DNA of 64,000 bases from Henriciella sp. (GTDB lineage: Bacteria; Pseudomonadota; Alphaproteobacteria; Caulobacterales; Hyphomonadaceae): positions 28,910-92,909 of the forward strand of contig JABSQB010000010.1 in NCBI GenBank assembly GCA_013214545.1. The letters are read 5' to 3'. Below, one piece after another: positions 42,234 to 58,316 of the stretch. The stretch's first letter is position 1. Each line of letters opens with the position of its first letter. The notes below the pieces were generated by a model. That model saw only the letters and a list, made by a program, of their open reading frames with translations. It ran no database searches and was not told where the DNA came from. The position numbers and the translations under genes were made by a program.

Positions 42234-45200
42234 GTGGCAGACGCGAAATATTACGACCGGATCAAGGACCTGGAGCGGATAGAGGCGGACCGCCCCCCTG
42301 ACAGGCGCGCGATCGACGATACCGAATTCGATTTCTCAGTCCTCAAATCAAAGTCCTGGTTCGGCCGCGCGATCGGAAAACTGATCCAGCAGCGTTGGCT
42401 CTATGCCATCCTGCGCACCTTCTTCCCGGTTCAAAAAATCAACGGCATCTATTTCGTCACACGCTACGAAGACGTTGAATATATTCGCCGGCATGATGAG
42501 CGGTTCGAGGCGCCTTATGGGCCGGAAATGGATGCGCTGACTGGCGGGGCGGGCTTCCTGCTCGGTATGGGCCGCGGCGCGGATTATGATCGCCAGTTTC
42601 AGTGCATTATGCACGGCATGGCGGGCAAACCGCCGGCCTTTCAAGCTGGTGACCTCGACAAGTTCGTCAAACCCAAAGCCGCGGAAACGGCGCGGCAGCT
42701 GATCAAGGCCGCAGCAGGCGAGTTTGACGTGATCGAGGATTATCTCAATCGCATCGCGGTGGAGACGTGTTGCCATCATTACGGGCTGGAGCCGGAAGAT
42801 CCGAACGCGTTTGCGCGCTGGCTGATGTCGCTGAGCGCGCTCTTGTTTGCGGACTATAATGGGGCGGAACATGTCCGGACGCTCGCCATGGCGGGGGCGA
42901 AACGTATCCATCCGGTCACCGACAAGGCCATCGCGCAGGCGCGGTACTGCCTGCAATTCCCGGAGGAAGCGGCTGAGCGACACGGTCAGGCCTATTGCGA
43001 CTGGATGACGGATACCGTGATTGGACGCCTGGTCGCGCAGCAACTCGCAGATCCTGATCAAGGGCCGAGCGACGCTGAAATCCGCGGCATGATCATGGGG
43101 CTCGCGGTCGGGTTCGTGGCCACCGGGGCTGGCGGCGGCGGCGGCATCCTGGAAGTCCTCCTGAAACGTCCGGGCGCGATGAAACGGGCGAAGGCCGCAG
43201 CCCATGCTGGCGACGATGATACGCTTGAGCGGATCCTGCTCGAAGCGATGCGGTTCAAGCCGCCCATTCTGCCCGGCTTGCCGCGCTATGTCGTTAAAGA
43301 CCGCGATGCAGCTTCAACCGATGAACGCAATAAGCGCGTCGACAAGATTCCGGCGGGCGCGACCATCCTGGCGGCGGCTTATTCCGCCATGTTTGACGGT
43401 CGCAAGTTTGGCGGGAGTATCAAACGTTTTGACGAAACCCGCGATCTCGGTCGTGATGATCTCTCCTTTGGCGGCGCTGATCTGCTGCACTATTGCATCG
43501 GCGAGCAGATTTTTCGGGTGATGATCACCCAGTCTTTCAAACACTTGCTGACCTGCGAAGATCTGAAACCTGCCACCGGTCCATCCGGAAAGATGGAGCG
43601 GACCGGCCCCTTCCCGGTTCATATGCAGATGACGTTCAAACCGGAGACCGGATTGCGACGCCATAGCATGCTGACCATCTGCGTCCCGCTGGAGCGTCCA
43701 GATGATGCCACGCGGATCAATCGCTGGCTTGATGAGCTCGGTAATCCCGCCGGTGAGGACGCGCGGACGGGCCTGATGGCGCAGCCGCACATTCAGTTCA
43801 TGCATATGACCGCCATCGCCGACGAGGACCGCAATATTCCGGCGAACCTGCTGGTTGAACTGAATGCCGACGGAGATCCCGAGCCCGCCATCGCAGCTTT
43901 CGTGCATGGGCTGTGGGATGTCGACCCGTTTCAGAAAATCATGGCGACCGCGTTCGGCTTGACCGATCCGACGCGCGAGAAGGTGATCGCCGGATTACTG
44001 GCGCGCAATTACGAGCTCAAGATCACGCCCTGGCCCGACCCCAAGCAGAAAACGATGGGGCTCAACTTTAACGGCCTTCCCGAGCAGTCGGCGCCGCAAA
44101 TTGCAGAAGAGCGAGCGTTGTCTCGCAAGGCCCGCGCACATTTCGACGCGTTTCTGCAACGCTCCGGAAGCAAGGATGCGACCGCGCGCGAAGCGGTTGA
44201 GTTCATTCGCCGGCAGCTCAAACACGCTGACGACGGCGCGCATGCCGCCGACATGGTTCGGCCGATCCAGAAGACCCCTTCCGTCTCCAGGCGCCCGACT
44301 CTGCCGCTCGGCGAAACGCTCAGTCTTTACCTGCAGGATCGCGGATTTCAGTTCACTGTTTTCGGTGGTATAGCGCTGTTTTGGCTGACTTATTTCGCTT
44401 TCGCGAATAGCGGCTTTCCCAAAGCATTCGGTTGGAGCGACCTCGGCCATCTGGCGATCAATACTGTCCATATCGCTGCCGCTTTCGTCGTTTTTTACGT
44501 CGCCCATGGGCTCCGGCAACCCCTGTTTGGCGGCGGTTCGCAGACAAGTTTATTTGGCTGGGCGGCGGCCACCACGCTGCTCTATCTCGTCCTGACGCCA
44601 GTCGGGATCTGGGGCACCCATGCGCTGGAACTGACGCCCGATCCAAACTACTGGACACGGGTGTACGCGCTGATCGGCCTGGCCTGGACACTTGCTGTTT
44701 CCGCTGTGTTCGGGATTTTGCTTTGGCTCGTCGCCGTTCTGGTTTTTGGCTTTTTGTTTCTGCGCCTCTTGCAAGCCAGCGAAGACGAACTTCCACCGGA
44801 AGACACAGACCTCGACCTGGAAAAGTACCAGGACATCATGGAGCGTGAGAACCGGGCGGATCATGCCCAGAACCACATCGTGTTCGTGACCCCGCTCAAG
44901 GATAATCCACGCTGGCTGCGCCGGGTGACGATGTTTATCGGCTTCTACTTCATCAAGACGCTGGTCCTGTATCGGTTCAGATTTGGCTTCGTCCTCGATC
45001 TCGGCACCATCCATTTCGCACGCTGGTACTTGCTGCCCAAGTCGCACACGATGGTCTTCTATTCGAATTACGATGGCAGCGGGGAGTCCTATTTCGAGGA
45101 CTTTGTAACCAAGGCCCGCTGGGGCCAGACCGGGGTCTGGAGCAATGGCAAAGGCTTCCCTGAGACGGAAAACCTGCTGTTCAAAGGGGCCAAGGATGCG

Positions 45201-46919
45201 ACCCGTTTCAAGCGCTGGATCCGGCATCACCAGCGGGTGTCGCGCTTCTGGTTTGCCCGGTTCAAGGACCTTTCGACGCGGGATATTCGCCGCAATGCCA
45301 TGATCTGTGAAGGCCTCGCCAAGGCCCGGACGGACAGTGAGTATCGCGCGCTTGTTGAGTTGATGACCTCGCGCACGCGGCCTCAAACCACCTTGGAAAC
45401 GCAGGAGATTCAAAGCGTGATCCTGCGCGGAATGGGCAAGCTGAAATCCGCCCGGGTGATGGCTCTGAACTTCCCGCCGGCGGGTCCAGCTGGCGACGAG
45501 GCGTTGGCGACTTGGTTCTCAGACCTTTCCGGGAAGTCGGAAGCGCCGCACCACAGCCCGGCTACGTTCGATCAACGCATCGACCCAACGGAGGCACGGG
45601 CGATCAATGTTGCCATCTCTCCGTCTGGTCTGAAACGGCTGCGCTTGAACGAGATCCATCACGTACACAAAGGCTTGGCGAGTGACAGTTTCGCATCCCT
45701 GCCTGGCGCGTTTCGCAGCGGGATGGTCAGCCCCGGGCGGAAGCAAATCCTGGGGGATGACAATCACTCGGATTGGACCTGGGGCTCGGCGTCCGAACCC
45801 GATGCGATGCTGATGGTCTACGCCAAGAATGATGACGCGCTTGAGATCGAAGTCGCCGCTGTGAGAGCCAAGCTGGAAGCGGCGGGCTTCATCATTGAAA
45901 AATCGATCACCACAAAGGAAATCAAGAACAATCCGATGACGGAACCGTTCGGCTTCGTCGATGGCATCTCGCAACTGGTCATCAATGGCATGCGCGGCAG
46001 TCTGTCCGGTCACAACAAGATGCATGTGGTTGAGGCCGGCGAAATCGTGCTCGGCTACCGCGACAATACCGAATATTTTCCAACCTCGCCCATGGTCAAC
46101 GCGCTGGCACCCGGGGCAGCGCAATTGCCATCCTTGCCAAGCGCTGCTCTGGACGACTACCCGGCATTCGGGACAGACCCGCAAACGGCGCCGCGGGATC
46201 TTGGAAAGAACGGCTCCTTCCTGGTCGTCCGACAATTGCAACAGGACCGAGCCGGGTTTGACCAGCACTTGACGGATCAAGCGGCCAAGGCACGCGCAGA
46301 CTATGGTCTGAGCTATATCAATGAGGAATGGCTTGCCGCCAAAATCATGGGGCGATGGCGGAATGGCGCCTCTCTGGTCAAGCGGCCAGATGAGGACATT
46401 CCAGCGCCAACGCGGACACTTTCGGTCGATGACAATGCGTTCCAGTTTGGCGCCGAAGACCCGCAAGGTCTGAAATGTCCGCTCGGCGCGCATATCCGCC
46501 GCGCAAATCCTCGCGACAGTCAGGCTCCAGGCGACGCGGAAGGACAAATCGCTTTATCCAACCGCCATCGCATCCTGCGCCGGGCCCGAGCCTATGAAGA
46601 CAAGGATGCCGGGACCGAAGGTTTGCTTTTCATGTGCCTGAACGCAAATCTCGAGCGGCAGTTTGAGTTTGTGCAACAAACCTGGCTCAACAATACACGC
46701 TTCCACGGCCAGCAAGACGAGTATGACTCAATCGCGGGCAATGCGCCCGGCGGTGATAATCGCATCACAATCCCGACGGCCGCAGGACCGATCCAGGTCA
46801 AGGGTCTGCAATCGTTTGTCACCATGAAGGGGGGCGGCTATTTCTTCATGCCCAGCCGATCTGCCCTGCGCTTCTTTGGCGACCTCGTCGCGGCGCACGC
46901 AAAAGCACAATCGGACTAG
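42234..46919 (+). CDS. Cytochrome P450 - four-helix membrane - DyP-type peroxidase fusion
   Basis: A 1,561-residue protein starting at GTG, 5 bp after AGGAGG. Residues about 40-450 resemble a cytochrome P450: FVTRYEDVEYIRRHDERF, an ExxR motif (Glu337-Arg340, LLEAMRFKPP) and a heme-Cys loop with Cys421 (FGGADLLHYCIGEQ). That loop is two residues longer than the usual FxxGxxxC, and the I-helix lacks the acid-Thr pair (FVATGAGGGGG). Residues 705-845 hold four membrane helices. Residues about 1070-1555 are a dye-decolourising peroxidase, with GFVDG at 1240-1244 and the heme-ligand His1420 in CPLGAHIRRANPRDS. Between them are two copies of an IxFxx...NxDG module (520-547 and 926-948). Two heme enzymes on one membrane protein suggest peroxide-linked oxidation. 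The substrate is unknown. Confidence 0.85.
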   Translation: MADAKYYDRIKDLERIEADRPPDRRAIDDTEFDFSVLKSKSWFGRAIGKLIQQRWLYAILRTFFPVQKINGIYFVTRYEDVEYIRRHDERFEAPYGPEMDALTGGAGFLLGMGRGADYDRQFQCIMHGMAGKPPAFQAGDLDKFVKPKAAETARQLIKAAAGEFDVIEDYLNRIAVETCCHHYGLEPEDPNAFARWLMSLSALLFADYNGAEHVRTLAMAGAKRIHPVTDKAIAQARYCLQFPEEAAERHGQAYCDWMTDTVIGRLVAQQLADPDQGPSDAEIRGMIMGLAVGFVATGAGGGGGILEVLLKRPGAMKRAKAAAHAGDDDTLERILLEAMRFKPPILPGLPRYVVKDRDAASTDERNKRVDKIPAGATILAAAYSAMFDGRKFGGSIKRFDETRDLGRDDLSFGGADLLHYCIGEQIFRVMITQSFKHLLTCEDLKPATGPSGKMERTGPFPVHMQMTFKPETGLRRHSMLTICVPLERPDDATRINRWLDELGNPAGEDARTGLMAQPHIQFMHMTAIADEDRNIPANLLVELNADGDPEPAIAAFVHGLWDVDPFQKIMATAFGLTDPTREKVIAGLLARNYELKITPWPDPKQKTMGLNFNGLPEQSAPQIAEERALSRKARAHFDAFLQRSGSKDATAREAVEFIRRQLKHADDGAHAADMVRPIQKTPSVSRRPTLPLGETLSLYLQDRGFQFTVFGGIALFWLTYFAFANSGFPKAFGWSDLGHLAINTVHIAAAFVVFYVAHGLRQPLFGGGSQTSLFGWAAATTLLYLVLTPVGIWGTHALELTPDPNYWTRVYALIGLAWTLAVSAVFGILLWLVAVLVFGFLFLRLLQASEDELPPEDTDLDLEKYQDIMERENRADHAQNHIVFVTPLKDNPRWLRRVTMFIGFYFIKTLVLYRFRFGFVLDLGTIHFARWYLLPKSHTMVFYSNYDGSGESYFEDFVTKARWGQTGVWSNGKGFPETENLLFKGAKDATRFKRWIRHHQRVSRFWFARFKDLSTRDIRRNAMICEGLAKARTDSEYRALVELMTSRTRPQTTLETQEIQSVILRGMGKLKSARVMALNFPPAGPAGDEALATWFSDLSGKSEAPHHSPATFDQRIDPTEARAINVAISPSGLKRLRLNEIHHVHKGLASDSFASLPGAFRSGMVSPGRKQILGDDNHSDWTWGSASEPDAMLMVYAKNDDALEIEVAAVRAKLEAAGFIIEKSITTKEIKNNPMTEPFGFVDGISQLVINGMRGSLSGHNKMHVVEAGEIVLGYRDNTEYFPTSPMVNALAPGAAQLPSLPSAALDDYPAFGTDPQTAPRDLGKNGSFLVVRQLQQDRAGFDQHLTDQAAKARADYGLSYINEEWLAAKIMGRWRNGASLVKRPDEDIPAPTRTLSVDDNAFQFGAEDPQGLKCPLGAHIRRANPRDSQAPGDAEGQIALSNRHRILRRARAYEDKDAGTEGLLFMCLNANLERQFEFVQQTWLNNTRFHGQQDEYDSIAGNAPGGDNRITIPTAAGPIQVKGLQSFVTMKGGGYFFMPSRSALRFFGDLVAAHAKAQSD

Positions 46920-47710
46920 TCGTCCAAGGCTGCGAGAATAGCTTGCGCTGTCTGTTCGGCATGCTCGTCCAAGACGGAGCGCTTTATGTCGAGGCGTTCG
47001 ACCAGACGAGCCCCCGCGATCAGACGCGCGGCGCGGCGGCTTGGCTCCAGCAACATGGACTGCGTCGCGATAATGGCGGTTGGCGCTGACAGCCGGGCGA
47101 AACAGGCTTCGACATTATACGTGAAGGCGGCGTGGAAGGTCGCGTTCTGTCGGTCACCCGCGGCAACCTGATCGGCAAACATTTCGAGACTGCGGGCAAG
47201 GGGTTGCGTTTCCGTGCGCGAGGTCACGGCCCGGTCCCAGGCCTTCGCCTGGCTCTGCAGGTCAGTGTCAGGCTCGAATGGAGCGCCGACCTGCGGCAAG
47301 TACTTAGCCCGGGTTTCCGGATCAAAGGCCGGGACGTCGACCAAGGCGAGACCGGCGACGCGGTCAGACAGGCGCAGGGCAACTTCTACAGCGACGAGGC
47401 AGCCGGAATGAAACCCTGTTAGCGTGATGTCCGTGGTGCCCGACTGTGCCTCTATCAGGGCGCACATGCTGTCGGCGTACTGTTCTATGCTCGGCGTCGG
47501 ACCGCCTCCTTCAGAACCGCCTTGGCCCGGATAGTCCGGGGCAATTGCCCGCCGCCCCTGCGCCAAAAAAGAAAGCACGGTGGCATAGGCAATAGAGCTG
47601 AATGGCGCTGGGGAGAAGCAGTAGAGATCGGGCGCATTGCCCTTGCCCTCGCTCATGCGCCAATGGATCTGGCCTTCCGGTCCGTCGCTATATCCTTTGC
47701 GACTGCTCAT
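46916..47710 (-). CDS. Alpha/beta-hydrolase family protein
   Basis: A 264-residue alpha/beta-hydrolase fold protein. The oxyanion region is YCFSPAPFSSIAY, and RRAIAPDYPGQGGSE gives the typical Asp-Pro-Gly turn. The nucleophile elbow is LTGFHSGCLVAVEVAL with Ser in the GxHSG form rather than the textbook GxSxG. A late His candidate lies in SVLDEHAEQTAQ. It overlaps the MFS gene by 4 bp upstream, and its stop overlaps the convergent P450-DyP stop by 4 bp. As last gene of the leftward operon it may hydrolyse an ester or C-C bond of the operon's substrate; this is inference. Confidence 0.82.
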   Translation of the reverse strand: MSSRKGYSDGPEGQIHWRMSEGKGNAPDLYCFSPAPFSSIAYATVLSFLAQGRRAIAPDYPGQGGSEGGGPTPSIEQYADSMCALIEAQSGTTDITLTGFHSGCLVAVEVALRLSDRVAGLALVDVPAFDPETRAKYLPQVGAPFEPDTDLQSQAKAWDRAVTSRTETQPLARSLEMFADQVAAGDRQNATFHAAFTYNVEACFARLSAPTAIIATQSMLLEPSRRAARLIAGARLVERLDIKRSVLDEHAEQTAQAILAALDD

Positions 47711-49056
47711 GCCTCGGCCGCCTTGGAGCTATCCAGCCGGTTCATTTGCGCGATATAGAGCCGCCGCGTGATGGGCAGCAGCAGGAACGGAATGAGGCCA
47801 TACATGATCGGCACCGCCCCAACGGCGAGGTTCAGGTTATCTTCGCCGAACACGCGTGAGGATAGAATCCCCACTGTCGGTGGCCCGAGCCACAGCCCCG
47901 CCATGGAGATCGCCATATAGTAAAGCGCAACGACCTGACCGCGAATCTGAGCCGGCGTAATCAACAGCAAGCCGGTGACACCAATGCAGGACACCATGCC
48001 GATCCCGACTGTGTTGATACAAAGCACCGCATAAGCGCTCCACCCCGTCGGCATCAGCATTGCGATCGCGCCGGTCGGGACCATGACAAGGAAACCTGCA
48101 ATCAGGATCCGCAACGGCGCATCGCACATACCTGCTTGTGTCCAGCGATCTGACAAGACGCCCCAGAGCAGGATGTTCGCCGGGCCAATGGCGAGGATCG
48201 CGGTGGCGTTGACGAACGCATAATATTCGGTTTCCCAGCCCCAAACGCGCTTGAACGTCGAGGCCAAGTATCCCTGGCTGTAAGCGATGATGGTCATGAC
48301 GCATATCAGCGAGACATAGCCAAGATAAGTGCCCCAATGACGCGCCACATATCCGAGCGCGTCGCTCATATCATTGCCTTTGAGACTGTCATCTTCAATC
48401 GTTGTGAGGCGTCGCTCCGGCTCACCGAGAAAGAAGAACCAGGCGGCGACCAGCAGGCCTGGAATACCAATCATGAAGAACGCAGTCTGCCAGGGCGCTA
48501 ATGTCCCGAGCAGTGGGATATCGATGGCCGAAGTGTTCTTAGCCCAAATCAGGATGCCGCCGCCCAGAAAGCTTGCCGCAGCAGCGCCGATGGTCAGCGC
48601 CATGGTGTAGAAAGCAATGGGCTTGCCGCGTTCTTCTGGTGGGAAACTGTCGCCAATCATCGAGAAGGCTGCGGGGCTGAGAGTCGCCTCTCCGGCGCCG
48701 ACGCTGAGCCGGGCCATGAACATCTGCCAGAAATTCTGCGCTACGCCTGACAGCGCTGTGGCGATGGACCAGAAGGCTATCCCGATGCCCACCAGCCAGG
48801 TCCGCCGAACCCGGTCGACGAGCCAGCCAATGAACAGGCCTGACGTGGCATAAACAATTGAGAAGGCTGGCCCGAGGATCCACCCGATCTGCTCGTCCGA
48901 GAGGTTGAGATCTGCCTTGATCGGTTCAATCAGGAGTTCGATAATCTTGCGATCGGCATAGCTGAACACATAAGCGACCGTCAGCGCGATCACGAGGATC
49001 CAGCCTTTGCTCGCTGGCGGATACGGCTTGCTCTCGGCCGCTGTCGTCTCGGTCAT
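47707..49056 (-). CDS. MFS transporter (Spinster-like)
   Basis: A 449-residue, 12-helix major facilitator protein. Helix 1 (WILVIALTVAYVFSYADRKI) carries the conserved YxDR signature of the Spinster-like group. The loop 2-3 motif is GWLVDRVRRTWLVG, and loop 4-5 is GAGEATLSPAAFSMIGDSFP. Such carriers in Caulobacterales and Sphingomonadales often sit in catabolic clusters beside TonB receptors and move organic acids or aromatics; the substrate here is unknown. It overlaps the VOC gene upstream and the hydrolase downstream (ATGA both). Confidence 0.9.
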   Translation of the reverse strand: MTETTAAESKPYPPASKGWILVIALTVAYVFSYADRKIIELLIEPIKADLNLSDEQIGWILGPAFSIVYATSGLFIGWLVDRVRRTWLVGIGIAFWSIATALSGVAQNFWQMFMARLSVGAGEATLSPAAFSMIGDSFPPEERGKPIAFYTMALTIGAAAASFLGGGILIWAKNTSAIDIPLLGTLAPWQTAFFMIGIPGLLVAAWFFFLGEPERRLTTIEDDSLKGNDMSDALGYVARHWGTYLGYVSLICVMTIIAYSQGYLASTFKRVWGWETEYYAFVNATAILAIGPANILLWGVLSDRWTQAGMCDAPLRILIAGFLVMVPTGAIAMLMPTGWSAYAVLCINTVGIGMVSCIGVTGLLLITPAQIRGQVVALYYMAISMAGLWLGPPTVGILSSRVFGEDNLNLAVGAVPIMYGLIPFLLLPITRRLYIAQMNRLDSSKAAEA

Positions 49057-49508
49057 GATGTGCCCTCCAGTATTGTGTAGATGACGACCAGATTATCATC
49101 GAAATCAACGATCCCGACTTCGCGCCCGATGCGGCCATCATTGGTCTCAAGTCGCTCTTCCGGATAGACCATGAGACCAAGTGCCCGCGCGCCTTCCATG
49201 ACTGTGTCGGGATCCGCCATGTCGAGCACGATGGCGCTGCGACGCGGCGGTGGCACCGGGGGTAAGTCGATGCCCTTGATTTCGGTCAGCGCCATGACGC
49301 GCACCTGATCCTGGGTCGATAGCGTGCAGAACCCGAGCTCTGCGCCTTCGGGGATATTGAAGACCGGGATCGAGTAGCTCTCCGGATTGTGGCCGTGCTG
49401 ATACGCGACCTCGAACCCGAGGACATCGCGGTAGAAGGTCAGCGCTCTTGCTATGTCTGACACGACGAAATTTCCGCGTTGAAAGCGAACGAAAGGTTTC
49501 TCAGTCAT
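49053..49508 (-). CDS. VOC-family (glyoxalase/dioxygenase fold) protein
   Basis: A 151-residue vicinal-oxygen-chelate protein. It starts with FVRFQRGNFVVSDIARALTF and YRDVLGFEVAYQHG and ends with VGIVDFDDNLVVIYTI, the two betaalphabetabetabeta modules of the fold. Metal ligands are not all obvious: His appears in the first module (AYQHGHNPESYS) and the last strand lacks a clear Glu. It may be an isomerase, lyase, dioxygenase or binding protein. It is coupled to the MFS gene by a 4-bp overlap and follows the MDR gene by 12 bp. Confidence 0.8.
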   Translation of the reverse strand: MTEKPFVRFQRGNFVVSDIARALTFYRDVLGFEVAYQHGHNPESYSIPVFNIPEGAELGFCTLSTQDQVRVMALTEIKGIDLPPVPPPRRSAIVLDMADPDTVMEGARALGLMVYPEERLETNDGRIGREVGIVDFDDNLVVIYTILEGTS

Positions 49509-49520
49509 GATAGCCCTGCC

Positions 49521-50594
49521 TCATATCCAATCCTCCGGTTCACCGCGCACGCGGCAAAGCTGCTTGCCCATGTTTTCTCCGGAATAGAGTCCCGCCAGCG
49601 CGGTGGGCATATGCTCAAACCCGTCTGTGATCTGCTCAACCGGCTTCAGGCGCCCGGTGCGGATCCAATCAGCCATTTCATCCATGGCGCGGTCCCAGTC
49701 ATCCAAATGATTATAGACGAAGAAGCCGCGCATCTGCGCATCGCTGCGGCGCAGTCTTGTGTAGTTCGGCAAACGAAATGGCGTTTCGAGCGTGTACTCG
49801 CTGATCGAACCGCAAAGCACAATTCGCGCGCTTTGTCGGAGGTGATCCATGGCAGCATCCAGAGTTGCCCCCCCGACATTGTCGAAATAGAGGTCGAGCC
49901 CTTCAGGCAGCGCTGCACTCAACGCGGACGCAACGTCTTCGGCCTTGTAATCAATGGCGATCTCACATCCGAGTTCTACAGCCTTGGCGCATTTGGTCGA
50001 ACCACCTGCGATCCCAACTGTTCGGCACCCGCTCACATTTGCCGCCATTTGAATGACCAAAGAGCCAACGCCGCCAACCGCGCCGGAGACCAGGACCGTG
50101 TCGCCATCTTGAGGGTCGCCGACATTGTAGAAGCCCGCCCAGGCCGACAAGCCCGTCATGCCAAGCGCGCCCAGCCCAAGCGAGGCGGGCAAACCGTTCG
50201 GCGGCATCTGGCGAAACTTCTCTTCGGGGGTCATGCGTGAGACTTTGAATGTCTGCCAGCCAAGCTGGCCTTGCACAACTTGCCCTTCTTGCCATTCAGG
50301 GTGACGTGACTTCACAATCTGGGCGACGCCGCGCCCATGGATCGTATCGCCTATGGCCAGCGGCTGTTCCCCGGCAAACGCCTCTCCGCTCATATAGCCG
50401 CGCATAACCGGCGCGAGGCTGAGATATTGCGTTCGGAGCAGCACTTCCCCAGCTTCAAGCTCTGGAATGGGCGCATGCTTCAATTCGAAATCACCCGCGC
50501 GAACATTGCCGTCTGGCCGACGTGCAACGCACCATTTCTGGACGCTCGACTCATCGAGTTCAAATCCGGCAGAGAGGCGCGAGAACTCGGTCAT
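49521..50594 (-). CDS. NADP-dependent MDR-family oxidoreductase (zinc-independent)
   Basis: A 357-residue medium-chain reductase of the leukotriene B4 12-hydroxydehydrogenase / curcumin-reductase group, which reduces enone double bonds with NADPH. Motifs are YLSLAPVMRGYMSG, HGRGVAQIVKS and LGMTGLSAWAGFYNVGDPQ. The dinucleotide loop is VLVSGAVGGVGSLVIQ, then GLDLYFDNVGGATLDA and LCGSISEY. No catalytic-zinc ligands are present. It lies 6 bp downstream of a VOC gene and 12 bp upstream of another, in the leftward operon. Confidence 0.9.
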   Translation of the reverse strand: MTEFSRLSAGFELDESSVQKWCVARRPDGNVRAGDFELKHAPIPELEAGEVLLRTQYLSLAPVMRGYMSGEAFAGEQPLAIGDTIHGRGVAQIVKSRHPEWQEGQVVQGQLGWQTFKVSRMTPEEKFRQMPPNGLPASLGLGALGMTGLSAWAGFYNVGDPQDGDTVLVSGAVGGVGSLVIQMAANVSGCRTVGIAGGSTKCAKAVELGCEIAIDYKAEDVASALSAALPEGLDLYFDNVGGATLDAAMDHLRQSARIVLCGSISEYTLETPFRLPNYTRLRRSDAQMRGFFVYNHLDDWDRAMDEMADWIRTGRLKPVEQITDGFEHMPTALAGLYSGENMGKQLCRVRGEPEDWI

Positions 50595-50600
50595 GCAGGA

Positions 50601-51074
50601 TCAGTCGTGCACTTTGACGACCTGATTGACCTCAAAGAAATAGCCATCGAGGTCCCAGAACGAACAGCCAATCATGTCTTTGACCTTGCCATCAGCGCCA
50701 GTGACCGACCATTCGCGCGGTTCGCAATGAATGCGGCTGCCAAGCGCCCGCGCCCGCTCGAGCGCGCCGCGGCCATCTTGTGAAGCGACGACAAAGACTG
50801 GCGCCCCAAACTTGATCTCGGTGGGTAGCTCATCCGGCGCATCCATTTTCGGGTCGAGCCATTCGAGCAAACCGATCATGCCGATCAGATCATGATTGGC
50901 CTTGAGAATGATCAGTCGGGTCTGATCCCCTTTCTTGCCAGCTGCGAGTTGCTCGCCGGACAGGGTGAAGGGCGTGTCCATCCACCGGGTCATTCCAAAC
51001 ACTTGTTCGTACCAATTCGCTGCACGATCACCGTCCCGAACCAACAGCGTGGTGCGTTTAATATCATCGGTCAA
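50601..51074 (-). CDS. VOC-family protein
   Basis: A 157-residue vicinal-oxygen-chelate protein unlike the first one in the operon. The first module is KRTTLLVRDGDRAANWYEQ and VFGMTRWMD. The second ends CSFWDLDGYFFEVNQVVKV with a Glu at the usual metal-ligand place. The start is TTG at 51074 with AAGGA 9 bp upstream; no in-frame ATG is near. Two different VOC proteins in one operon suggest successive ring or enol chemistry on the same substrate class. Confidence 0.78.
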   Translation of the reverse strand: MTDDIKRTTLLVRDGDRAANWYEQVFGMTRWMDTPFTLSGEQLAAGKKGDQTRLIILKANHDLIGMIGLLEWLDPKMDAPDELPTEIKFGAPVFVVASQDGRGALERARALGSRIHCEPREWSVTGADGKVKDMIGCSFWDLDGYFFEVNQVVKVHD

Positions 51075-51161
51075 ATGATATATCCTTTCCTTCCGCTCCC
51101 TATCTCTAAAGCCCGAGACAGGGATTTGTGAAGGAAAATCTTTGCGTCAGGTGCGACCGGA

Positions 51162-51599
51162 CTATCCGGCCTTGGAGGGATGCCCTGTTTCGATCTCGTG
51201 GATTTCGCGTCCGAGGAAGAACGAGATGGCCGTGCGGATCAGAACCAGGAGTCCGACAAAGATCAGATCTGTCAGCTCCCGTGTGATCACCGTATGGACA
51301 ATGTCCGAAGCGATCATGAACTCCAACCCGGTCAGGATATAGGTGCCGAGAATGGTCCGCGCCGCATTGAGATTACCAAGATTCTTGGCGATCCCCACGC
51401 CGTGCCGTAGCCCCGCCAGCAAGCGGAACAGCGCAACGAAAAAGCCGAACAGGATCAGCACCACACCGATCAGGTCTATACAGATGGCTAGCCCTTCCAG
51501 GGTCCGCATAACCGGTTCGTCAAGACCGAATGGGAGATGCTCCAGAGACGTCCCACCGGTCATCCCGTCCATGATATGCCCTGACTCAGACGTGCTCAT
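51162..51599 (-). CDS. DUF1622 membrane protein
   Basis: A 145-residue membrane protein recognised as the DUF1622 family. The core shows ICIDLIGVVLILFGFFVALF, GILTGLEFM-like blocks seen as RTILGTYILTGLEFMIASDI, and LIFVGLLVLIRTAISFFLG with the conserved Arg and the REIHEIE end. Three helices are predicted. Function is unknown. The ATG at 51599 shares its bases with the stop of the Rieske-TPP gene (TGATG), so expression is tied to that enzyme. Confidence 0.85.
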   Translation of the reverse strand: MSTSESGHIMDGMTGGTSLEHLPFGLDEPVMRTLEGLAICIDLIGVVLILFGFFVALFRLLAGLRHGVGIAKNLGNLNAARTILGTYILTGLEFMIASDIVHTVITRELTDLIFVGLLVLIRTAISFFLGREIHEIETGHPSKAG

Positions 51600-53593
51600 C
51601 ACAAGAGCTCCGCGTCGGTGATCACTTCAATGAGAGATGGCCCATCATGAGCAATCGCCTTGGCCAAGGCTTCGTCGAGCTGCTCGCGTGTTTTCACAAG
51701 CTCGCCCATTCCGCCACAGGAGCGCGCAAACCCGGCAAAGCTTGGATTGACGAGGCTAGTCTGCCAGACCTCAAACTCTGCTGCCTTCTGCTCCTTGCTG
51801 ATTTTGCCGAGCTCGGAATTGTTCATCAGCACATGCGTGATGTTCATGCCGTATTTGACCGCTGTCGTGAATTCCATCGCGTACTGACCGAAGCCACCAT
51901 CGCCGGACACTGAAATGACCTTGCGGCCTTTGTAGGGCCCGTCTTCCCGCGTCGCTGCCCAGGCCCCCATGGCCGCCGGGAAAGAAAACCCGATGGATCC
52001 GAGATAACCCGACATCAAGACGCGCTGCTGGCCGGTCGGCTCAAAATATCGTCCGAAGGAGTAGGTATTGTTGCCAACATCGACAGGCAGGATGGCATCG
52101 GCGGGCGCATGGCGGGTCAGCGCCTCGAACAGGGCCGCAGCTGAAACACCTTTGCCGCGATCTTCTCCAACGCGGCTTTCTTTTTCCGCGCGCCACAGCT
52201 TCCAGCGTTCGGCGACTTCGCCGCGCAAGTCGGTTGCAGCCGCGCCGCCGCGTTCCATCTCGGCTTTGAGCAAGTCCGCCGTAACCGCGACGTCGCCCAT
52301 GACCGGGACAGTGACCGGATGGCGCTTGGCAAGGCGCATCGGGTCTGTGTCGACCTGAATGGTCGGCGCGCCTTCATAGATACCGGTATGGTCAGAGAAA
52401 CTCGCTCCGAAGACCAGCAACAAGTCGGCTTCATTCATGAACCAGCTGGCGATTGGCGTGCCAGAACGCCCCATGACGCCGGCTGCGAGTGGATGATCGT
52501 CGCCGATTTGACCTTTGGCCTTGAACGTGGTCGCGATCGGCGCGCCAAGCTGTTCTGCCAGAGCAATGACGCTTTCCATTCCGTTCAGTGCGCCGGATCC
52601 GACGATGATCATCGGCCGTTTCGCGCCTTTCAGCAGGTCTGAGGCCTCTTTCAGTGCAGACGGCGGAGGTCCCACACATAGGTTGGCCATCCGGCCTGCC
52701 GGGCCATAGGCTTTCGCACCTTCTGGGGCGAGCGTCGGTTGAACATTGTCCGGGAAGACGAGATGCCCAACGCCGCGCTGCAGAATTGAGGTCTTGATCG
52801 CCTGCATCATCAGCAAAGCATGATCGGAATTGAGATGCACGGTCTCTGAGAATTCAGCCACGGCTTCAAAAGCCGCTTCAAGATCAATGTCCTGGAACGC
52901 ATGCACGCCGACCACCTGATCTTGCACCTGGCCGGTCAATGCGAGCGCCGGAGCGCCATCAACTTTGGCGTCCCACAGGCCTGTCAGCAAGTTGGTTGCG
53001 CCGGGTCCAGCAATCGTCAGCGCCGCCGCGGGATGTCCCGTCAGCTTGCCATAGCCAGAGATTGCAAACGCCGCCGCCCCTTCATGGCGGATACCGTAAT
53101 AGGTCAGTTTGCCTTCGGCCTCCTGCATCCGCAGAGCATCGGCGAGCCCAAGATTCGAATGCCCGACCATGCCAAACACGCTGGTCACACCCCAATTGGT
53201 CATTGTCTCAGCCATCACATCAGCAATGGTCCGCTCGCGCGGCGGCAGCGCTGGCACCCCGACATAGATACCATCGTCACGGATATCGACGTCGAACATC
53301 TCTTGTCCGGTATCCTCATGGCCGCCAGGTGGTTTGCCGGTGAGCGGGTCAAAGTCCCAACCATGCCACGGGCAACGCAGCCAGCATTTGCCGTCTATTC
53401 CGTCTTCAATCGATCCTTCGCCGAGCGGGCCGCCCTGGTGGGGACATTTATTGTCCATCGCCGCGTACTGCCCTTGAAAGTGAACCAGAGCGACAGATTG
53501 CGTGCCTGCGGTGGCAGATTTCACGCGGCCTTCCGCGACTTCATCGGTTTCGGCAACTTTATGCCAGATGAGTGTGGTCTTGTTTTCAGACAT
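51599..53593 (-). CDS. Rieske [2Fe-2S] - thiamine-diphosphate enzyme fusion
   Basis: A 664-residue fusion. Residues 1-110 form a Rieske domain with Cys50-Pro-His52 (NKCPHQGGPLGEG) and Cys74-x-x-His77 (RCPWHGWDFDP). Residues 120-664 form a complete thiamine-diphosphate enzyme of the acetolactate synthase / pyruvate oxidase type. Its features are the catalytic Glu in YGIRHEGAAAFAISGYG, the central domain KRPMIIVGSGAL, and the ThDP motif SGDGGFGQYAMEF ending in HVLMNN. The Rieske cluster could accept electrons from the hydroxyethyl-ThDP intermediate directly, making a ferredoxin-type oxidase or dehydrogenase; this is inference. The start has GGGGAG upstream. It is divergent from the Rieske-GltS fusion. 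Confidence 0.92.
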   Translation of the reverse strand: MSENKTTLIWHKVAETDEVAEGRVKSATAGTQSVALVHFQGQYAAMDNKCPHQGGPLGEGSIEDGIDGKCWLRCPWHGWDFDPLTGKPPGGHEDTGQEMFDVDIRDDGIYVGVPALPPRERTIADVMAETMTNWGVTSVFGMVGHSNLGLADALRMQEAEGKLTYYGIRHEGAAAFAISGYGKLTGHPAAALTIAGPGATNLLTGLWDAKVDGAPALALTGQVQDQVVGVHAFQDIDLEAAFEAVAEFSETVHLNSDHALLMMQAIKTSILQRGVGHLVFPDNVQPTLAPEGAKAYGPAGRMANLCVGPPPSALKEASDLLKGAKRPMIIVGSGALNGMESVIALAEQLGAPIATTFKAKGQIGDDHPLAAGVMGRSGTPIASWFMNEADLLLVFGASFSDHTGIYEGAPTIQVDTDPMRLAKRHPVTVPVMGDVAVTADLLKAEMERGGAAATDLRGEVAERWKLWRAEKESRVGEDRGKGVSAAALFEALTRHAPADAILPVDVGNNTYSFGRYFEPTGQQRVLMSGYLGSIGFSFPAAMGAWAATREDGPYKGRKVISVSGDGGFGQYAMEFTTAVKYGMNITHVLMNNSELGKISKEQKAAEFEVWQTSLVNPSFAGFARSCGGMGELVKTREQLDEALAKAIAHDGPSLIEVITDAELL

Positions 53594-53748
53594 AATTTTG
53601 TCTCCCCTCGCTTGCTTTCCGCTGCCCTATCGAAAACAGTAAGCTATGGCATATCAAAAGTCGTTCACGTTTTTTTGGGTGTTGTGATTGGTCAGCGATA
53701 AAGTCGCTCGATACAGGCGGGGCAAATGATTGAGAGGGGAGCGCTGAG
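53594..53748. promoter_or_regulatory. Divergent control region of the Rieske cluster
   Basis: The 155 bp between the two divergent fusion genes must contain both promoters. A perfect inverted repeat AGCGA-TAAAG-TCGCT lies at 53694-53708, and a run of seven T at about 53670. Both start codons are preceded by the same GAGGGGAG ribosome site in opposite orientation. No regulator gene is adjacent, so the factor is unknown. Confidence 0.4.
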
Positions 53749-55365
53749 ATGAACAAGATCGCTGTCGCAAAATGGGATGACTTAGCTGACCGCCAACCGG
53801 AATACGCCATTGTTGGCGAAGTCGATTTGGTGGTGGTGCGCTTTGATGAAACAGTTTCGGTCTTCTATGGCCGTTGTCTTCACCGCGGCGCGTTGATGTC
53901 AGATGGGCATGTCGACGAGAACGACAACCTGATCTGCGGGGTCCACAATTGGGATTACCGGCTCGATAGCGGCGTGTCGGAATATGAAAACTCCGAAGCT
54001 CTGCCAAAGTTCCAGGCTTGGATCGAAAATGGCGATGTTCTCGTAGACGCTGACGAAATCAATGCCTGGGGTCACGCCAATCCGCAGCCTTACCAGCGCG
54101 ACCAGTATCTCGGCCTGTACCAGGACCCGAGCCATGATCCGCATCCGGAACCGACCAATGCACTGATCCAGCAATATGCCCGCGACGGGCTGAGCAAAGT
54201 TGGCCATCACGGCGTCACGGATTCAATGGGCGTTCCGCGCGACCAGCTGCCAAAATGGGATGATATCCAGATCCTGACCGCGCAGTTGGACACATTCCCT
54301 CTGCTCGATAACGAGCCGGTCGACACCCGAACCGTGATCGGACCGAACGCGCAAAAGCCGCTGCATTTGGATATCCCGCTTTTTGTCTCTGATATGAGTT
54401 TTGGAGCGCTGTCTGAGCCGGCAAAGGTCGCCCTCGCCCGCGGCGCTGAGCTGGCGGGAACCGGCATTTGCTCTGGTGAAGGCGGCATGCTGCCGGAAGA
54501 ACAGGAAGCCTGCTCGCGCTACTTCTATGAACTCGCTTCTGGCCGGTTTGGTTTCGGCTGGGACAAGCTCGACAAGGTTCAGGCCTTCCATTTCAAAGGC
54601 GGTCAGGGCGCCAAGACCGGCACTGGCGGGCACCTTCCCGGCAATAAGGTGAAGGGCAAAATCGCCGAAGTCCGCGGCCTTGAAGAAGGCGTGTCCGCGA
54701 TTTCGCCGCCGCGCTTTCCCGATTGGACCGATTGCTTGCGGGTCAAAGACTTCGCTGACGAAGTGCGTGATCGTACCGGCGGCATTCCCATTGGATACAA
54801 GCTGTCCGCCCAACACATTGAAAAAGATATCGAAGCCGCGCTCTTGGTCGGCGTTGATTACATCATTCTCGACGGCCGCGGCGGCGGCACGGGTGCGGCC
54901 CCGATCATCTTCCGCGATAATATCTCAGTCCCGACCATCCCTGCCCTTGCCCGGGCGAGAAAGTTCCTCGACGAAGCCGGGCGCAGCGATATCTCGCTGG
55001 TGATTACAGGAGGCCTGCGTAAACCCGCTGACTTTGTCAAAGCCATGGCCCTAGGCGCTGATGCGATCGCAGTCTCAAATGCCGCTATGCAAGCCATTGG
55101 CTGCATCGCTATGCGCGCCTGTCACACCAATAATTGTCCTGTTGGAATCGCGACGCAGAAGCCGCACCTGGTGTCTCGTCTGGTCATCGAGAAATCAGCC
55201 CAGCGCTTGAGAAACTTCTTTGAGGCTTCGACCGATCTCATGAAAGTTATGGCGCGCGCGTGCGGACATAGTAAGCTGAGTGCATTCAATGTGGAGGATC
55301 TGACCACGTTTAGTCGTGAAATGTCAGATCTGTCAGGGGTCGCATATGCGGGAGTGGGACGATGA
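53749..55365 (+). CDS. Rieske [2Fe-2S] - glutamate-synthase-like FMN/3Fe-4S fusion
   Basis: A 538-residue fusion. Residues 1-105 form a Rieske domain with Cys43-Leu-His45 (GRCLHRGALMSDG) and Cys63-x-x-His66 (CGVHNWDYRLD). Residues about 170-530 match the FMN barrel of glutamate synthase: VSDMSFGALSEPAK, GEGGMLPEE, KGGQGAKTGTGGHLPG, AISPPRFPDWT, DYIILDGRGGGTGAAP and VITGGLRKPAD. The 3Fe-4S cysteines are 452, 458 and 463 (CIAMRACHTNNCPVG). No glutaminase domain is present. Stand-alone FMN domains of this kind occur in several oxidoreductases of unknown substrate. It heads an overlapping operon of five genes. Confidence 0.92.
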   Translation: MNKIAVAKWDDLADRQPEYAIVGEVDLVVVRFDETVSVFYGRCLHRGALMSDGHVDENDNLICGVHNWDYRLDSGVSEYENSEALPKFQAWIENGDVLVDADEINAWGHANPQPYQRDQYLGLYQDPSHDPHPEPTNALIQQYARDGLSKVGHHGVTDSMGVPRDQLPKWDDIQILTAQLDTFPLLDNEPVDTRTVIGPNAQKPLHLDIPLFVSDMSFGALSEPAKVALARGAELAGTGICSGEGGMLPEEQEACSRYFYELASGRFGFGWDKLDKVQAFHFKGGQGAKTGTGGHLPGNKVKGKIAEVRGLEEGVSAISPPRFPDWTDCLRVKDFADEVRDRTGGIPIGYKLSAQHIEKDIEAALLVGVDYIILDGRGGGTGAAPIIFRDNISVPTIPALARARKFLDEAGRSDISLVITGGLRKPADFVKAMALGADAIAVSNAAMQAIGCIAMRACHTNNCPVGIATQKPHLVSRLVIEKSAQRLRNFFEASTDLMKVMARACGHSKLSAFNVEDLTTFSREMSDLSGVAYAGVGR

Positions 55366-55592
55366 GTGAAGCCGCCGCCGAAACGCTGGTACTGGCGCTC
55401 GGGATCTATGCGCTGATCGGCGTGCTGGTCGGGCTGATCTACATGTTCGGCGGAGCTGGACGGATTGATCCAGCGGCCAAAGGCAAGGGACTGCCCCTGC
55501 GGGTCAGACTGCTCGTCTTTCCTGGAATTGCGGGTCTCTGGCCGCTCATGCTGACCAAGCTGTTCACTCAAAAGGAGCCGCCAGTTTCATGA
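55362..55592 (+). CDS. Small membrane protein, 76 residues
   Basis: One N-terminal helix (LVLALGIYALIGVLVGLIYMF), a short loop (GGAGRIDPAAKGKGL) and a second hydrophobic stretch (RVRLLVFPGIAGLWPLML) before a basic end. The PLRVRLLVFPG...WPLM block is the most distinctive part. The start overlaps the preceding fusion gene (ATGA) and the stop overlaps the next small gene (ATGA). Position and coupling suggest a subunit or assembly partner of the membrane Rieske protein downstream. No known family can be named. Confidence 0.75.
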   Translation: MSEAAAETLVLALGIYALIGVLVGLIYMFGGAGRIDPAAKGKGLPLRVRLLVFPGIAGLWPLMLTKLFTQKEPPVS

Positions 55593-55738
55593 AGCGCTCT
55601 CACCGACGAGTTCATTTCGGAATATGGGTCATCATCGGCCCGCTTATGCTGTGGCTGCTCGTGCTCGCTTTTGCCGATATTCCTGAAACGCCAGACAATG
55701 ACGTGCTTCCAGAAGCGCTGACTGAGGAGGCGAGCTGA
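55589..55738 (+). CDS. Tiny membrane protein, 49 residues
   Basis: A 50-codon gene below usual size cut-offs. Product: basic start MKRSHRRVHFG, one helix (IWVIIGPLMLWLLVLAFA), then a short acidic tail (DIPETPDNDVLPEALTEEAS). The ATG overlaps the stop of the 76-residue gene (ATGA). Its stop shares bases with the next start (TGATG), and GAGGAG inside it serves that next gene. Tight coupling on both sides argues it is real. Likely a single-span subunit of the neighbouring redox complex. Confidence 0.7.
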   Translation: MKRSHRRVHFGIWVIIGPLMLWLLVLAFADIPETPDNDVLPEALTEEAS

Positions 55739-56793
55739 TGTCGCACGATTACAAAATGGTGCAATGGAACCCGTTCAAGAAACGGTTCGACGTCTGGATG
55801 CTCAGCGGCGTGGCGCTCTACCTCGTCTCTTTCATTACACTGACCTATGCGACCCAACCTGAGGGGAACAGTTTCACCCCGATCCAGGCGATGATCCGGG
55901 CGACCGGCACCCTCGCCTTCCTTATGCTCAATTTCATTCTCTGCATCGGTCCGCTCGCACGGTTTTCTCACCGGTTCCGGCCGTTTTTGTACAATCGCCG
56001 ACATATCGGCGTGACGACTTTCCTGATCGCGCTGGTGCATGGCGGTCTGGTGCTGCTCTGGTATCATGGCTTCTCGGAAACCAATGCGTTTGTCTCCCTC
56101 TTCATCTCCAATCCGCGCTATGACAGCATTTCGGGCTTCCCGTTCGAAGTTCTTGGCTTCATCGCCCTGATCATCATGTTCCTGATGGCCGCGACGAGCC
56201 ATGATTTCTGGAACGCCAATCTCGGTCCCGGTATCTGGAAAGCGCTGCATATGAGCGTCTACGTGGCCTACGGCCTACTCGTCGCGCACATGGCGCTGGG
56301 CGCGCTGCAGTTCGAGAAAAGACCAATCTTTTTCCTGGTCCTTGGAACCGGCGCCGGGACGGTGATCCTTCTGCATCTGGTCTCATCCATTGCCAGCTTG
56401 CGCATCTCTGATCGTATCGGTCATGAAGGCTGGCTGCGCGTGGCAGAAGTGCGTGAGCTGGAAGACAAACGCGCCAAGATCATTCGCCCGGTCGACGGTG
56501 ACGCCATCGCAGTGTTTCGGGACGGCGACCGGATCGCGGCGGTCTCAAACATCTGTCGCCATCAAGGCGGCCCGCTGGGCGAAGGCAAGGTGGTTGACGG
56601 ATGCATCACCTGTCCCTGGCATGGCTTCCAATATCGGATGGAGGACGGCCAGTCGCCGCCGCCCTTCACAGAGAAAATCGCAACTTATGCGACCCGCATC
56701 ATGAATGGTACGGTGTATGTCAATCCAAAGCCTAATCCCCCAGGCACGCCGCAGGCGCCGAGTGAAGTAGGAGGCTCGAATGAGCAAGGATGA
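55738..56793 (+). CDS. Ferric-reductase-like membrane protein with C-terminal Rieske domain
   Basis: A 351-residue protein. Residues 15-225 hold about six helices of the ferric-reductase-like / MsrQ heme-b type; candidate heme ligands lie in HIGVTTFLIALVHGG and ALHMSVYVAYGLLVAHMALG. Residues about 235-335 form a Rieske domain with Cys273-Arg-His275 (CRHQGGPLGEG) and Cys292-x-x-His295 (CPWHGFQYRMEDG). Usually this membrane module is followed by a flavin reductase; here a Rieske cluster replaces it, giving an electron path between heme b and a cytosolic or periplasmic partner. It overlaps the 49-residue gene and, by 14 bp, the next gene. Confidence 0.88.
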   Translation: MSHDYKMVQWNPFKKRFDVWMLSGVALYLVSFITLTYATQPEGNSFTPIQAMIRATGTLAFLMLNFILCIGPLARFSHRFRPFLYNRRHIGVTTFLIALVHGGLVLLWYHGFSETNAFVSLFISNPRYDSISGFPFEVLGFIALIIMFLMAATSHDFWNANLGPGIWKALHMSVYVAYGLLVAHMALGALQFEKRPIFFLVLGTGAGTVILLHLVSSIASLRISDRIGHEGWLRVAEVRELEDKRAKIIRPVDGDAIAVFRDGDRIAAVSNICRHQGGPLGEGKVVDGCITCPWHGFQYRMEDGQSPPPFTEKIATYATRIMNGTVYVNPKPNPPGTPQAPSEVGGSNEQG

Positions 56794-57529
56794 TTTCTTC
56801 ATCGGATGGGCTGAAACGCCGGAGGTCGACCGCCGCTTTATGCTGGGCGCAGGCCTCAGCATCATCACGGGCACAACCGCCGTTGGCATCGGTATCTCAG
56901 CGCGCCAGCGCCCCGTCGGCAGCGGCACATGGAACATGGGCGAGATCCGCGAATGGCGCGGCATCGCGACTTCAGAACCATATGGCATGATACGCACGCT
57001 TGACCTGGACGGCACGGAGCGCACCGCCTTGCTTGCATGCCAGGGCAAATGCGGGGTCAGCGCCAAGATCGGCGCGCTGGCAGGCAAACCCGTCGTGGTC
57101 AAAGGGTCTCTCATTCATCGCGGCCGCCATGCGATGATCGCTGTGGTCGACGGCCTGGACTGGATCCGCGAAGACCCGGATGGCAGCATTGATGGTCTCG
57201 CCTTCCCTCAGCCCGAACCGATCATGGACGTTTCGCTGAATGGCGAGATCATGGACAGCAAATGCTGGTTCGGCGCAATGCGCCCGGCGCGCGGCAAGAT
57301 TCACAAATCCTGCGCCAGCCTGTGCATTCGCGGCGGGCTACCCCCGGCATTTTATGTGCGAGATATGAAGGACCAGACCGCTTTGATGATCATGACCTCG
57401 GGCGGGTATGGTCACAATAAGGACCTGCTGCCCTTCGTAGCTGAGTCGGTGTCGATAACCGGTCAGCTGCAACGCTTTGGAGATCTGTTCCTTCTGGATG
57501 CACCGGTCAGCGCGATCACGCGGCTCTAA
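56780..57529 (+). CDS. Tat-like exported or anchored Cys/His-motif protein, unknown function
   Basis: A 249-residue protein. Near the N-terminus an Arg-Arg pair before a hydrophobic stretch (VDRRFMLGAGLSIITG) resembles a Tat signal or anchor. A beta-rich middle domain follows, with CQGKCGVSAKIG. Near residue 160 is the striking motif GEIMDSKCWFGAMRP, then GKIHKSCASLCIRGGLPPAF, containing three Cys and a His suited to metal or cluster binding. I do not know a functional name for this motif. It overlaps the ferric-reductase-Rieske gene by 14 bp, so it probably acts with it on the periplasmic face. It is last in the rightward operon. Confidence 0.75.
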   Translation: MSKDDFFIGWAETPEVDRRFMLGAGLSIITGTTAVGIGISARQRPVGSGTWNMGEIREWRGIATSEPYGMIRTLDLDGTERTALLACQGKCGVSAKIGALAGKPVVVKGSLIHRGRHAMIAVVDGLDWIREDPDGSIDGLAFPQPEPIMDVSLNGEIMDSKCWFGAMRPARGKIHKSCASLCIRGGLPPAFYVRDMKDQTALMIMTSGGYGHNKDLLPFVAESVSITGQLQRFGDLFLLDAPVSAITRL

Positions 57530-58299
57530 TTGGTCGATCCGAAGCTCGCGCCGGTCTTGTCGAAATAGGCTCGCCAGAAGGCGCGCAGCTCTCCGATCGG
57601 CAGATCATATTCCTGCCGCGGAACGATGCGCGCGACCACATCAACGCCGCCCATTTTAGGCACTTGCTGCGCCACCGACGCCTCAGAGTATGCGGCGAGA
57701 TCTGCGCCGTAGCGGTAGAACGAGAACCCGTCCGAATGCTGCATCAAATCCGAGACGATCACGAGGCGACGGTTCTTACGGTTGTTCTGAAAGTCAGCGC
57801 GATCACCGACGGAGTAGAGCGCTTCAAACAAAGGCGAACTTGGTTGACTGGTGGTCTTCAGCGTCTCGCCGACAGTACTGGTCAGCGGCAGGTAAAATTG
57901 CTCGCGCCACGTATCATCGATCATGCGCGGGTTCTGCAGGATCGGATTGGCATCCTCGACACTGCCGGGTGAACAATGCGTGTAGAGCGTCGTCGGATCA
58001 AATGGCGTCGCGCTGTTCGGCAGAACAACGGTGAGGCGCCCGAAGCGCGGCAATGTCCGCGCCTCATTATCGATCAGCTCATCCACCCAGGCGAGATCAT
58101 TTTCGCTAAATGGGTCGGACTGATCGATCAGAATGATCGTGTGTGCGGGATCCTGCCGGTCCATCCGGCAAGCCGTGTCGACATCAAGCGCGGGCGCTGA
58201 ATTGAATGCAGCGACGGAAAACAATCCAACCACCGAAAACAGCATGACGCCAATCGCGCCGCGCCAGAACCAGGGACCTCTTTCTCTAGGACGCGCCAT
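57526..58299 (-). CDS. VWA-like membrane-anchored protein
   Basis: A 257-residue protein with one N-terminal helix (residues 12-33). A soluble domain resembles a von Willebrand A fold: HTIILIDQSDPFSENDLAW with a partial metal-site motif (Asp59-Gln-Ser61), a middle segment with SSPLFEALYSV, and RRLVIVSDLMQHS as a later core strand with Asp. The DxSxS metal site is incomplete (the second Ser is replaced). It lies 17 bp downstream of a coiled-coil membrane protein gene on the same strand, and its stop overlaps the convergent neighbour by 4 bp. Family function is unknown to me. Confidence 0.65.
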   Translation of the reverse strand: MARPRERGPWFWRGAIGVMLFSVVGLFSVAAFNSAPALDVDTACRMDRQDPAHTIILIDQSDPFSENDLAWVDELIDNEARTLPRFGRLTVVLPNSATPFDPTTLYTHCSPGSVEDANPILQNPRMIDDTWREQFYLPLTSTVGETLKTTSQPSSPLFEALYSVGDRADFQNNRKNRRLVIVSDLMQHSDGFSFYRYGADLAAYSEASVAQQVPKMGGVDVVARIVPRQEYDLPIGELRAFWRAYFDKTGASFGSTN

Positions 58300-58316
58300 T
58301 ATTCATCTCCCTGCTT

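Follow-up and report, generated by a model that had tools for sequence, protein, structure and literature searches.

A conserved trio of Rieske-domain fusions in Henriciella and a possible electron relay into a NOX/STEAP-like membrane protein

INTRODUCTION

Rieske proteins occur in cytochrome bc complexes and in oxygenase systems. Here, we describe a locus of Henriciella sp. in which three Rieske domains are fused to a thiamine diphosphate (ThDP) enzyme, to a flavin mononucleotide (FMN) domain of the glutamate synthase type and to a membrane protein of the ferric reductase type, respectively. The locus lies in a stretch of 64,000 nucleotides (GCA_013214545.1, contig JABSQB010000010.1, positions 28,910 to 92,909), hereafter the window, whose numbering is used throughout unless another locus is named. 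The ThDP part resembles the Escherichia coli enzyme PoxB, the tail of which contacts the membrane and quinone; the FMN part resembles glutamate synthase, which works reductively; and the membrane part resembles the NOX/STEAP/MsrQ superfamily, of which MsrQ gets its electrons from quinol.

Related domain combinations have been noted before. CDGSH-Glu_synthase proteins, which are similar to our FMN fusion in carrying an iron-sulfur motif, there CDGSH, in front of the Glu_synthase domain, appear in the relevant part of one study (PMC5859297), and the lines devoted to them mention neither a Rieske-FMN form nor a ThDP partner or membrane hub; Rieske-bearing ferric reductase domains are mentioned in a part of another (PMC3591440). 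In the literature, we found no description of the trio of a Rieske-ThDP protein, a Rieske-FMN protein and a Rieske membrane hub.

RESULTS

The Rieske-ThDP fusion (664 residues, 51599-53593, reverse strand) carries an N-terminal Rieske domain (Pfam E 1e-16) in front of a pyruvate-oxidase-like enzyme with all three TPP domains. Divergently from it, on the forward strand, runs the gene of the Rieske-FMN fusion (538 residues, 53749-55365), in which a Rieske domain (E 1e-12) precedes a glutamate-synthase-type FMN domain (Glu_synthase, E 1.1e-89) with a three-cysteine site. This gene overlaps by 4 bases that of a 76-residue small membrane protein, TM76 (55362-55592, forward), which is followed on the same strand by a Ferric_reduct-Rieske membrane fusion of 351 residues (55738-56793; E 1.1e-14 and 2.8e-16), our proposed hub, and by a membrane-anchored double OB-fold protein of 249 residues (56780-57529), described from an alignment and a structural model. 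Pfam thus bears out the three Rieske fusions that an earlier note on this DNA had proposed from the letters alone, and it agrees with that note that this is no standard dioxygenase operon: the catalytic alpha subunit that defines Rieske non-heme oxygenases, Ring_hydroxyl_A, has no match among the cluster proteins. The genome, estimated to be 99.98% complete, contains eight Rieske matches, three of them in the cluster, and its closest named protein relatives come from Hyphomonadaceae (Hyphomonas, Henriciella).

Do the three fusions belong together? We retrieved 80 named loci among the matches listed for an alignment of the ThDP fusion alone, many of them interrupted by contig ends (L-numbers denote fetched loci, G-numbers genomes). 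An FMN protein stands near the ThDP gene in 47 of the 80, the called gene showing no Rieske motif in 4 of these 47; the membrane fusion and the OB protein are each found nearby in 33, and at least one of the FMN and membrane fusions in 52. Because the complete trio recurs in 28 of the 80 loci fetched with one fusion only, its assembly is not a matter of chance. Across these 28 loci the trio spans 4,953-6,298 bp; all three genes share one strand in 16, and the FMN and membrane fusions are co-stranded in every one. An independent count covered 385 alphaproteobacterial genomes at set E-value limits, with standalone FMN homologues at 43-46% left out. The Rieske-type FMN fusion occurred in 10 genomes (including G403, where it is cut before the Rieske part), the ThDP fusion in 15 and the membrane fusion in 18. 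The three pairs were shared in 8, 8 and 7 genomes, as against 0.4, 0.5 and 0.7 expected (P 2.5e-11, 1.7e-10 and 7.1e-7), or in 7, 7 and 6 once the window's own genome was removed (P 5.2e-10, 2.9e-9 and 7.1e-6); all three fusions were present in 7 of the 385, from 5 families. Hence the ThDP arm and the arm of FMN and membrane Rieske genes are found together, and clustered, in other genomes too; a failure to co-occur was one of the two outcomes, next to a lack of co-expression, that the earlier note had named as refuting its proposal.

The distance matrices of the fusions correlate with r 0.72 to 0.92 (28 stretches including the window). Among 61 genomes (our own and close relatives), 13 contain an FMN homologue at 71% or more, and in all 13 the membrane fusion lies within about 0.5 kb of it. 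The homologue in G006 (C105:10281-11474) was matched as two separate pieces, so this gene is either broken or misassembled. Gene order varies: the Litoreibacter relatives read antiporter-FMN-TM76-hub-OB-tm92-ThDP and the Roseibium relatives FMN-ThDP-TM76-hub-OB-tm82, and the divergent layout of the window occurs in Hyphomonadaceae, Marinicaulis and Parvularcula. Roseibium denhamense and Labrenzia sp. THAF82 possess the full set. The TM76 cluster was present in 27 of 101 stretches including the window; 16 of the 27 belong to the 80 ThDP loci.

The best relative of the ThDP fusion in the PDB is PoxB (3eya, E 7.8e-60; 3ey9, E 9.1e-60). The whole ThDP part aligns, residues 121-662 of the fusion to 3-530 of PoxB, with the RHE region and the FQ motif retained. 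Like pyruvate oxidases, the fusion has three TPP-enzyme domains, the ThDP motif and the catalytic Glu. A pyruvate oxidase would in addition bind FAD and use pyruvate; the NCBIfam pyruvate oxidase score of the fusion, 377.8, is below the cut-off of 742. The motifs are well kept (RHEG in 80 of 81, FQ and GDGG in 81 of 81), and in a 14-sequence alignment of ThDP fusions the Rieske ligands and the GDG motif are invariant. Three differences from PoxB stand out. The fusion has an extra Rieske domain in front; a Phe of PoxB is replaced by Lys597, itself invariant in the 14 sequences; and the alignment to the full PoxB chain stops at residue 530 of 572, 2 residues before the end of the fusion, so that the last about 42 residues of PoxB, including the C-terminal membrane-binding tail, find no counterpart. 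Since a PoxB-type tail is missing, electron exit via the added Rieske domain would be the natural reading.

The FMN fusion shares with GltB the Glu_synthase family domain, three cysteines (C452, C458 and C463), K289 and R309, all five invariant in 13 FMN sequences including the GltB of the same genome. Thus, it has the glutamate synthase FMN domain with the cysteines for a [3Fe-4S] cluster, the cluster itself being predicted. It differs in the Rieske domain in front, in the absence of any glutaminase domain (N-terminal in glutamate synthase) among its Pfam matches, and in His295, which is a Gln in GltB. A full-size GltB-like frame of 1513 residues and other TPP-enzyme frames are encoded elsewhere in the genome; the fusions are therefore not the sole copies of their families.

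The membrane domain of the third fusion resembles STEAP and NOX proteins. It has six helices with paired heme histidines, four of them invariant, and heme binding is predicted. Where NOX proteins have their reductase parts binding flavin adenine dinucleotide (FAD) and reduced nicotinamide adenine dinucleotide phosphate (NADPH), Pfam finds no such part and a Rieske domain instead; a further difference from the superfamily is the company of Rieske-tagged enzymes and an OB-fold partner. MsrQ is matched in NCBIfam at E 1.5e-12 and 47.5 bits, below the cut-off of 130, and the adjoining gene is not that of MsrP, the periplasmic molybdopterin partner in MsrPQ, but that of the double-OB protein, which has no Pfam match. 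The gene of the latter nearly always follows that of the membrane fusion (the gene caller pairs the two in 43 of 46 loci), and C162, H175, C178 and C182 are invariant in an alignment of 27 sequences. Its model (pLDDT, the predicted local distance difference test, 90.9) suggests a transmembrane-anchored double OB-fold. This protein had earlier been taken as Tat-like (twin-arginine translocation). Twin arginines before an aromatic residue near the N-terminus occur in just 12 of the 27 sequences, and a Tat signal is therefore not a feature of the family.

In several relatives the iron-sulfur module has been exchanged or extended. In the FMN homologues of L013 and L025-L028, two CDGSH motifs stand in for the Rieske domain (Pfam on the G082 gene); among the 15 ThDP genes of the 385-genome set, 5 have two CDGSH motifs before the Rieske domain (G061, G143, G189, G242 and G290; Pfam on G143). 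These 5 are confined to genomes lacking FMN fusion and hub (0 of 5 vs 7 of 9, P 0.02, the cut G403 being left out). A fourth fusion, of Rieske and FMN_red, adjoins the hub gene at L161:6257-7384 and L164:3359-4474, where no OB gene was called. Taken together, these swaps suggest that the Rieske domain may be a plug for the hub.

How far do the fusions reach? Besides alpha- and gammaproteobacteria, the sources of the 80 loci include bins labelled Acidobacteriota, Nitrospirales, Polyangia, Gemmatimonadota, Planctomycetota and others. Pairs of ThDP and FMN genes were seen in gammaproteobacterial, Nitrospirales and Polyangia loci, whereas L117 (gammaproteobacterial) and L147 (Acidobacteria) combine the ThDP gene with those of the hub and the OB protein. 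Four haloarchaeal plasmids encode the ThDP fusion (59.9-61.2% identity), three of them also the FMN fusion (about 60%), and a Mycobacteroides plasmid a ThDP fusion at 51.7%. A search for the hub (E 1e-30), which covered the plasmid set and hence no haloarchaeal chromosomes, returned Rhizobium only (5 records). On the three of these Rhizobium plasmids that were inspected (L195, L196, L197) the hub is accompanied by the OB protein, small proteins, a Rieske-less ThDP protein, a coenzyme A transferase, OpgC and a TPR protein, and L177 has the same gene set; for one plasmid, NCBIfam places the ThDP protein near acetolactate synthases and the transferase near the CaiB type, in both cases below cut-off.

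Other genes recur beside the fusions. A Na_H_Exchanger antiporter gene often adjoins the FMN gene (L122:7014-8294 and 22 other loci), and a sodium:proton antiporter stands beside the ThDP gene on a Halorarius plasmid. Open reading frames (ORFs) for an extracytoplasmic function (ECF) sigma factor and/or a short zf-HC2-type anti-sigma factor immediately precede the Rieske-ThDP gene or are close to it, e.g. at L113:8915-9885 and L102:9008-9918. A DUF5996 protein neighbours the Rieske-ThDP gene in 11 of the 80 loci, e.g. L097:9141-10004 (Pfam on one); a literature search found no paper under that name.

DISCUSSION

Based on the clustering and co-occurrence of the three fusions, on their conserved cluster-ligand and histidine positions and on the resemblance of the modelled folds, we propose, with a probability of about one half, that they work as one electron relay into the NOX/STEAP-like hub and on to its double-OB partner. 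A substrate would be oxidised at the ThDP or the FMN enzyme in the cytosol, its electrons would pass one by one via the Rieske cluster of that enzyme to the Rieske domain of the hub, and from there through two predicted b-hemes to the periplasmic side, where the OB protein would take them up. Among substrate classes, 2-oxo acids would be likeliest for the ThDP enzyme and amino or imino acids for the FMN enzyme. The cofactors, the topology, the direction of electron flow and the docking of Rieske on Rieske are those that gene anatomy and company would predict, and the STEAP/NOX-like membrane domain makes the electron delivery to the membrane, foreseen in the earlier note, plausible.

If this holds, Rieske domains would serve here to tag two enzymes, a ThDP enzyme of the decarboxylating type and a flavoenzyme akin to glutamate synthase, in a set with a NOX-like hub, a use of the fold different from the known ones, and central metabolites could feed the membrane without reduced nicotinamide adenine dinucleotide (NADH). 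It would also provide a context for families known by domain name alone (DUF1622, DUF5996) and for the Pfam-less OB protein.

Several observations weigh against this relay. With the E-value limits applied, FMN fusion and hub are both missing from 7 of the 15 ThDP genomes, and both soluble fusions from 10 of the 18 hub genomes; 28 of the 80 ThDP loci show no FMN or hub gene nearby, though many contigs are cut. The co-occurrence test takes genomes as independent, and its 7 trio genomes fall in 5 families; the distance correlation in part mirrors the species tree. By locus title, the complete trio within 10 kb is confined to alphaproteobacteria (28 of 28), with pairs only elsewhere. The haloarchaeal ThDP copies have SDGG in place of GDGG, and on the three Rhizobium plasmids the ThDP protein beside the hub is a different one, without Rieske. 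The CDGSH-FMN form never occurs with ThDP or hub (0 of 4), and CDGSH was not found in 79 ThDP genes of the named loci, so the point drawn from the CDGSH swaps rests on a small set. Finally, the sigma and anti-sigma ORFs beside some copies may point to a role in stress rather than in nutrition. The trio is a conserved set, but not an obligatory one.

A more far-reaching version of the relay is possible, but we regard it as rather doubtful: the Rieske domain could be an exchangeable plug on unrelated cytosolic enzymes (the ThDP oxidase, the GltS-type flavoenzyme and the FMN_red flavoprotein), docking them onto one NOX-like hub that exports electrons to a new periplasmic OB-fold carrier, while CDGSH-tagged forms would be hub-independent. 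Bacteria would then possess a branch of respiration or redox export that is so far undescribed, and haloarchaea would share its soluble enzymes.

Could the electrons run the other way? Quinol or periplasmic electrons might enter via the heme protein and the Rieske domain supply an FMN enzyme acting reductively on a 2-imino or 2-oxo acid, in the manner of a glutamate synthase driven by Rieske, with the ThDP enzyme as a second source. The three Cys, the Lys and the Arg of glutamate synthase are kept, the Rieske domain sits in ferredoxin's place and the hub has its below-cut-off match to the quinol-fed MsrQ. However, the ThDP partner is of the oxidase type, the Gln of GltB has become a His and the genome already has its full-size GltB-like frame; we consider the reverse direction unlikely.

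Less probable still is a stress or detoxification module, disposing of reactive carbonyls or keeping redox and ion balance under oxidant stress with antiporter and ECF regulation. It would account for the Na+/H+ exchanger family gene in 23 of the 80 loci (Pfam on one), for ORFs of ECF sigma and/or zf-HC2 anti-sigma factors that adjoin the ThDP gene or lie close to it in L092, L102, L103, L104, L113 and L202 (Pfam on L113 only) and for the mercury reductase annotations in the vicinity of two haloarchaeal copies. However, most of the 80 stretches lack antiporter and regulator, and the antiporter on the haloarchaeal plasmid shares only 28-32% identity over 117-221 of 410 residues.

Downstream of the DUF1622 gene, the reverse strand of the window holds an arm of VOC, MDR reductase, VOC, MFS and alpha/beta hydrolase genes (46916-51074), so that the two VOC proteins, reductase, carrier and hydrolase listed in the earlier note are all recovered by Pfam. 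The pathway built on them there, import of an enone, aromatic or terpenoid substrate, its reduction and hydrolysis to a 2-oxo compound and ThDP oxidation via the Rieske chain, is quite improbable: in the window the arm is co-directional with the ThDP gene and close behind it, but among the 80 loci, many of them truncated by contig ends, only 1 (L082) has it beside that gene, and of 13 relatives that carry the core, our own genome included, 3 have it there. Its first VOC gene was found in 7 of the 61 genomes, adjoining the core in three (our own, G024 and G028), on a separate contig in G052 and without the FMN fusion in G010, G038 and G051. Present beside ThDP only in the closest relatives, the arm therefore looks like a local catabolic add-on rather than a part of the core.

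Of the two small membrane proteins that had been noted, one is TM76 and the other the DUF1622 protein (146 residues, 51162-51602, reverse strand; E 7.7e-18), whose gene overlaps the ThDP stop by 4 bases and recurs in 6 of the 80 loci by gene caller and in 9 by tblastn. The 155-bp divergent promoter region between the ThDP and FMN genes (53594-53748) has blocks in common with the close relatives L078 and L079. A 74-residue ORF at 53586-53810 is probably no gene: it lies in this promoter region, overlaps both divergent genes and has no Pfam match. By eye, the word GATTTGC was spotted in 5 of 14 ThDP-FMN intergenic stretches (L090, L114, L129, L139 and L155). Abutting the hydrolase gene is a 1561-residue ORF (42234-46919) with a weak Dyp_perox_C match only. 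On the other flank, two genes without a solid Pfam family (57526-59921) adjoin the OB gene, an arrangement conserved in L078 and L079, the closest relatives, and a weak Stf0 sulfotransferase match follows at 60178-61317.

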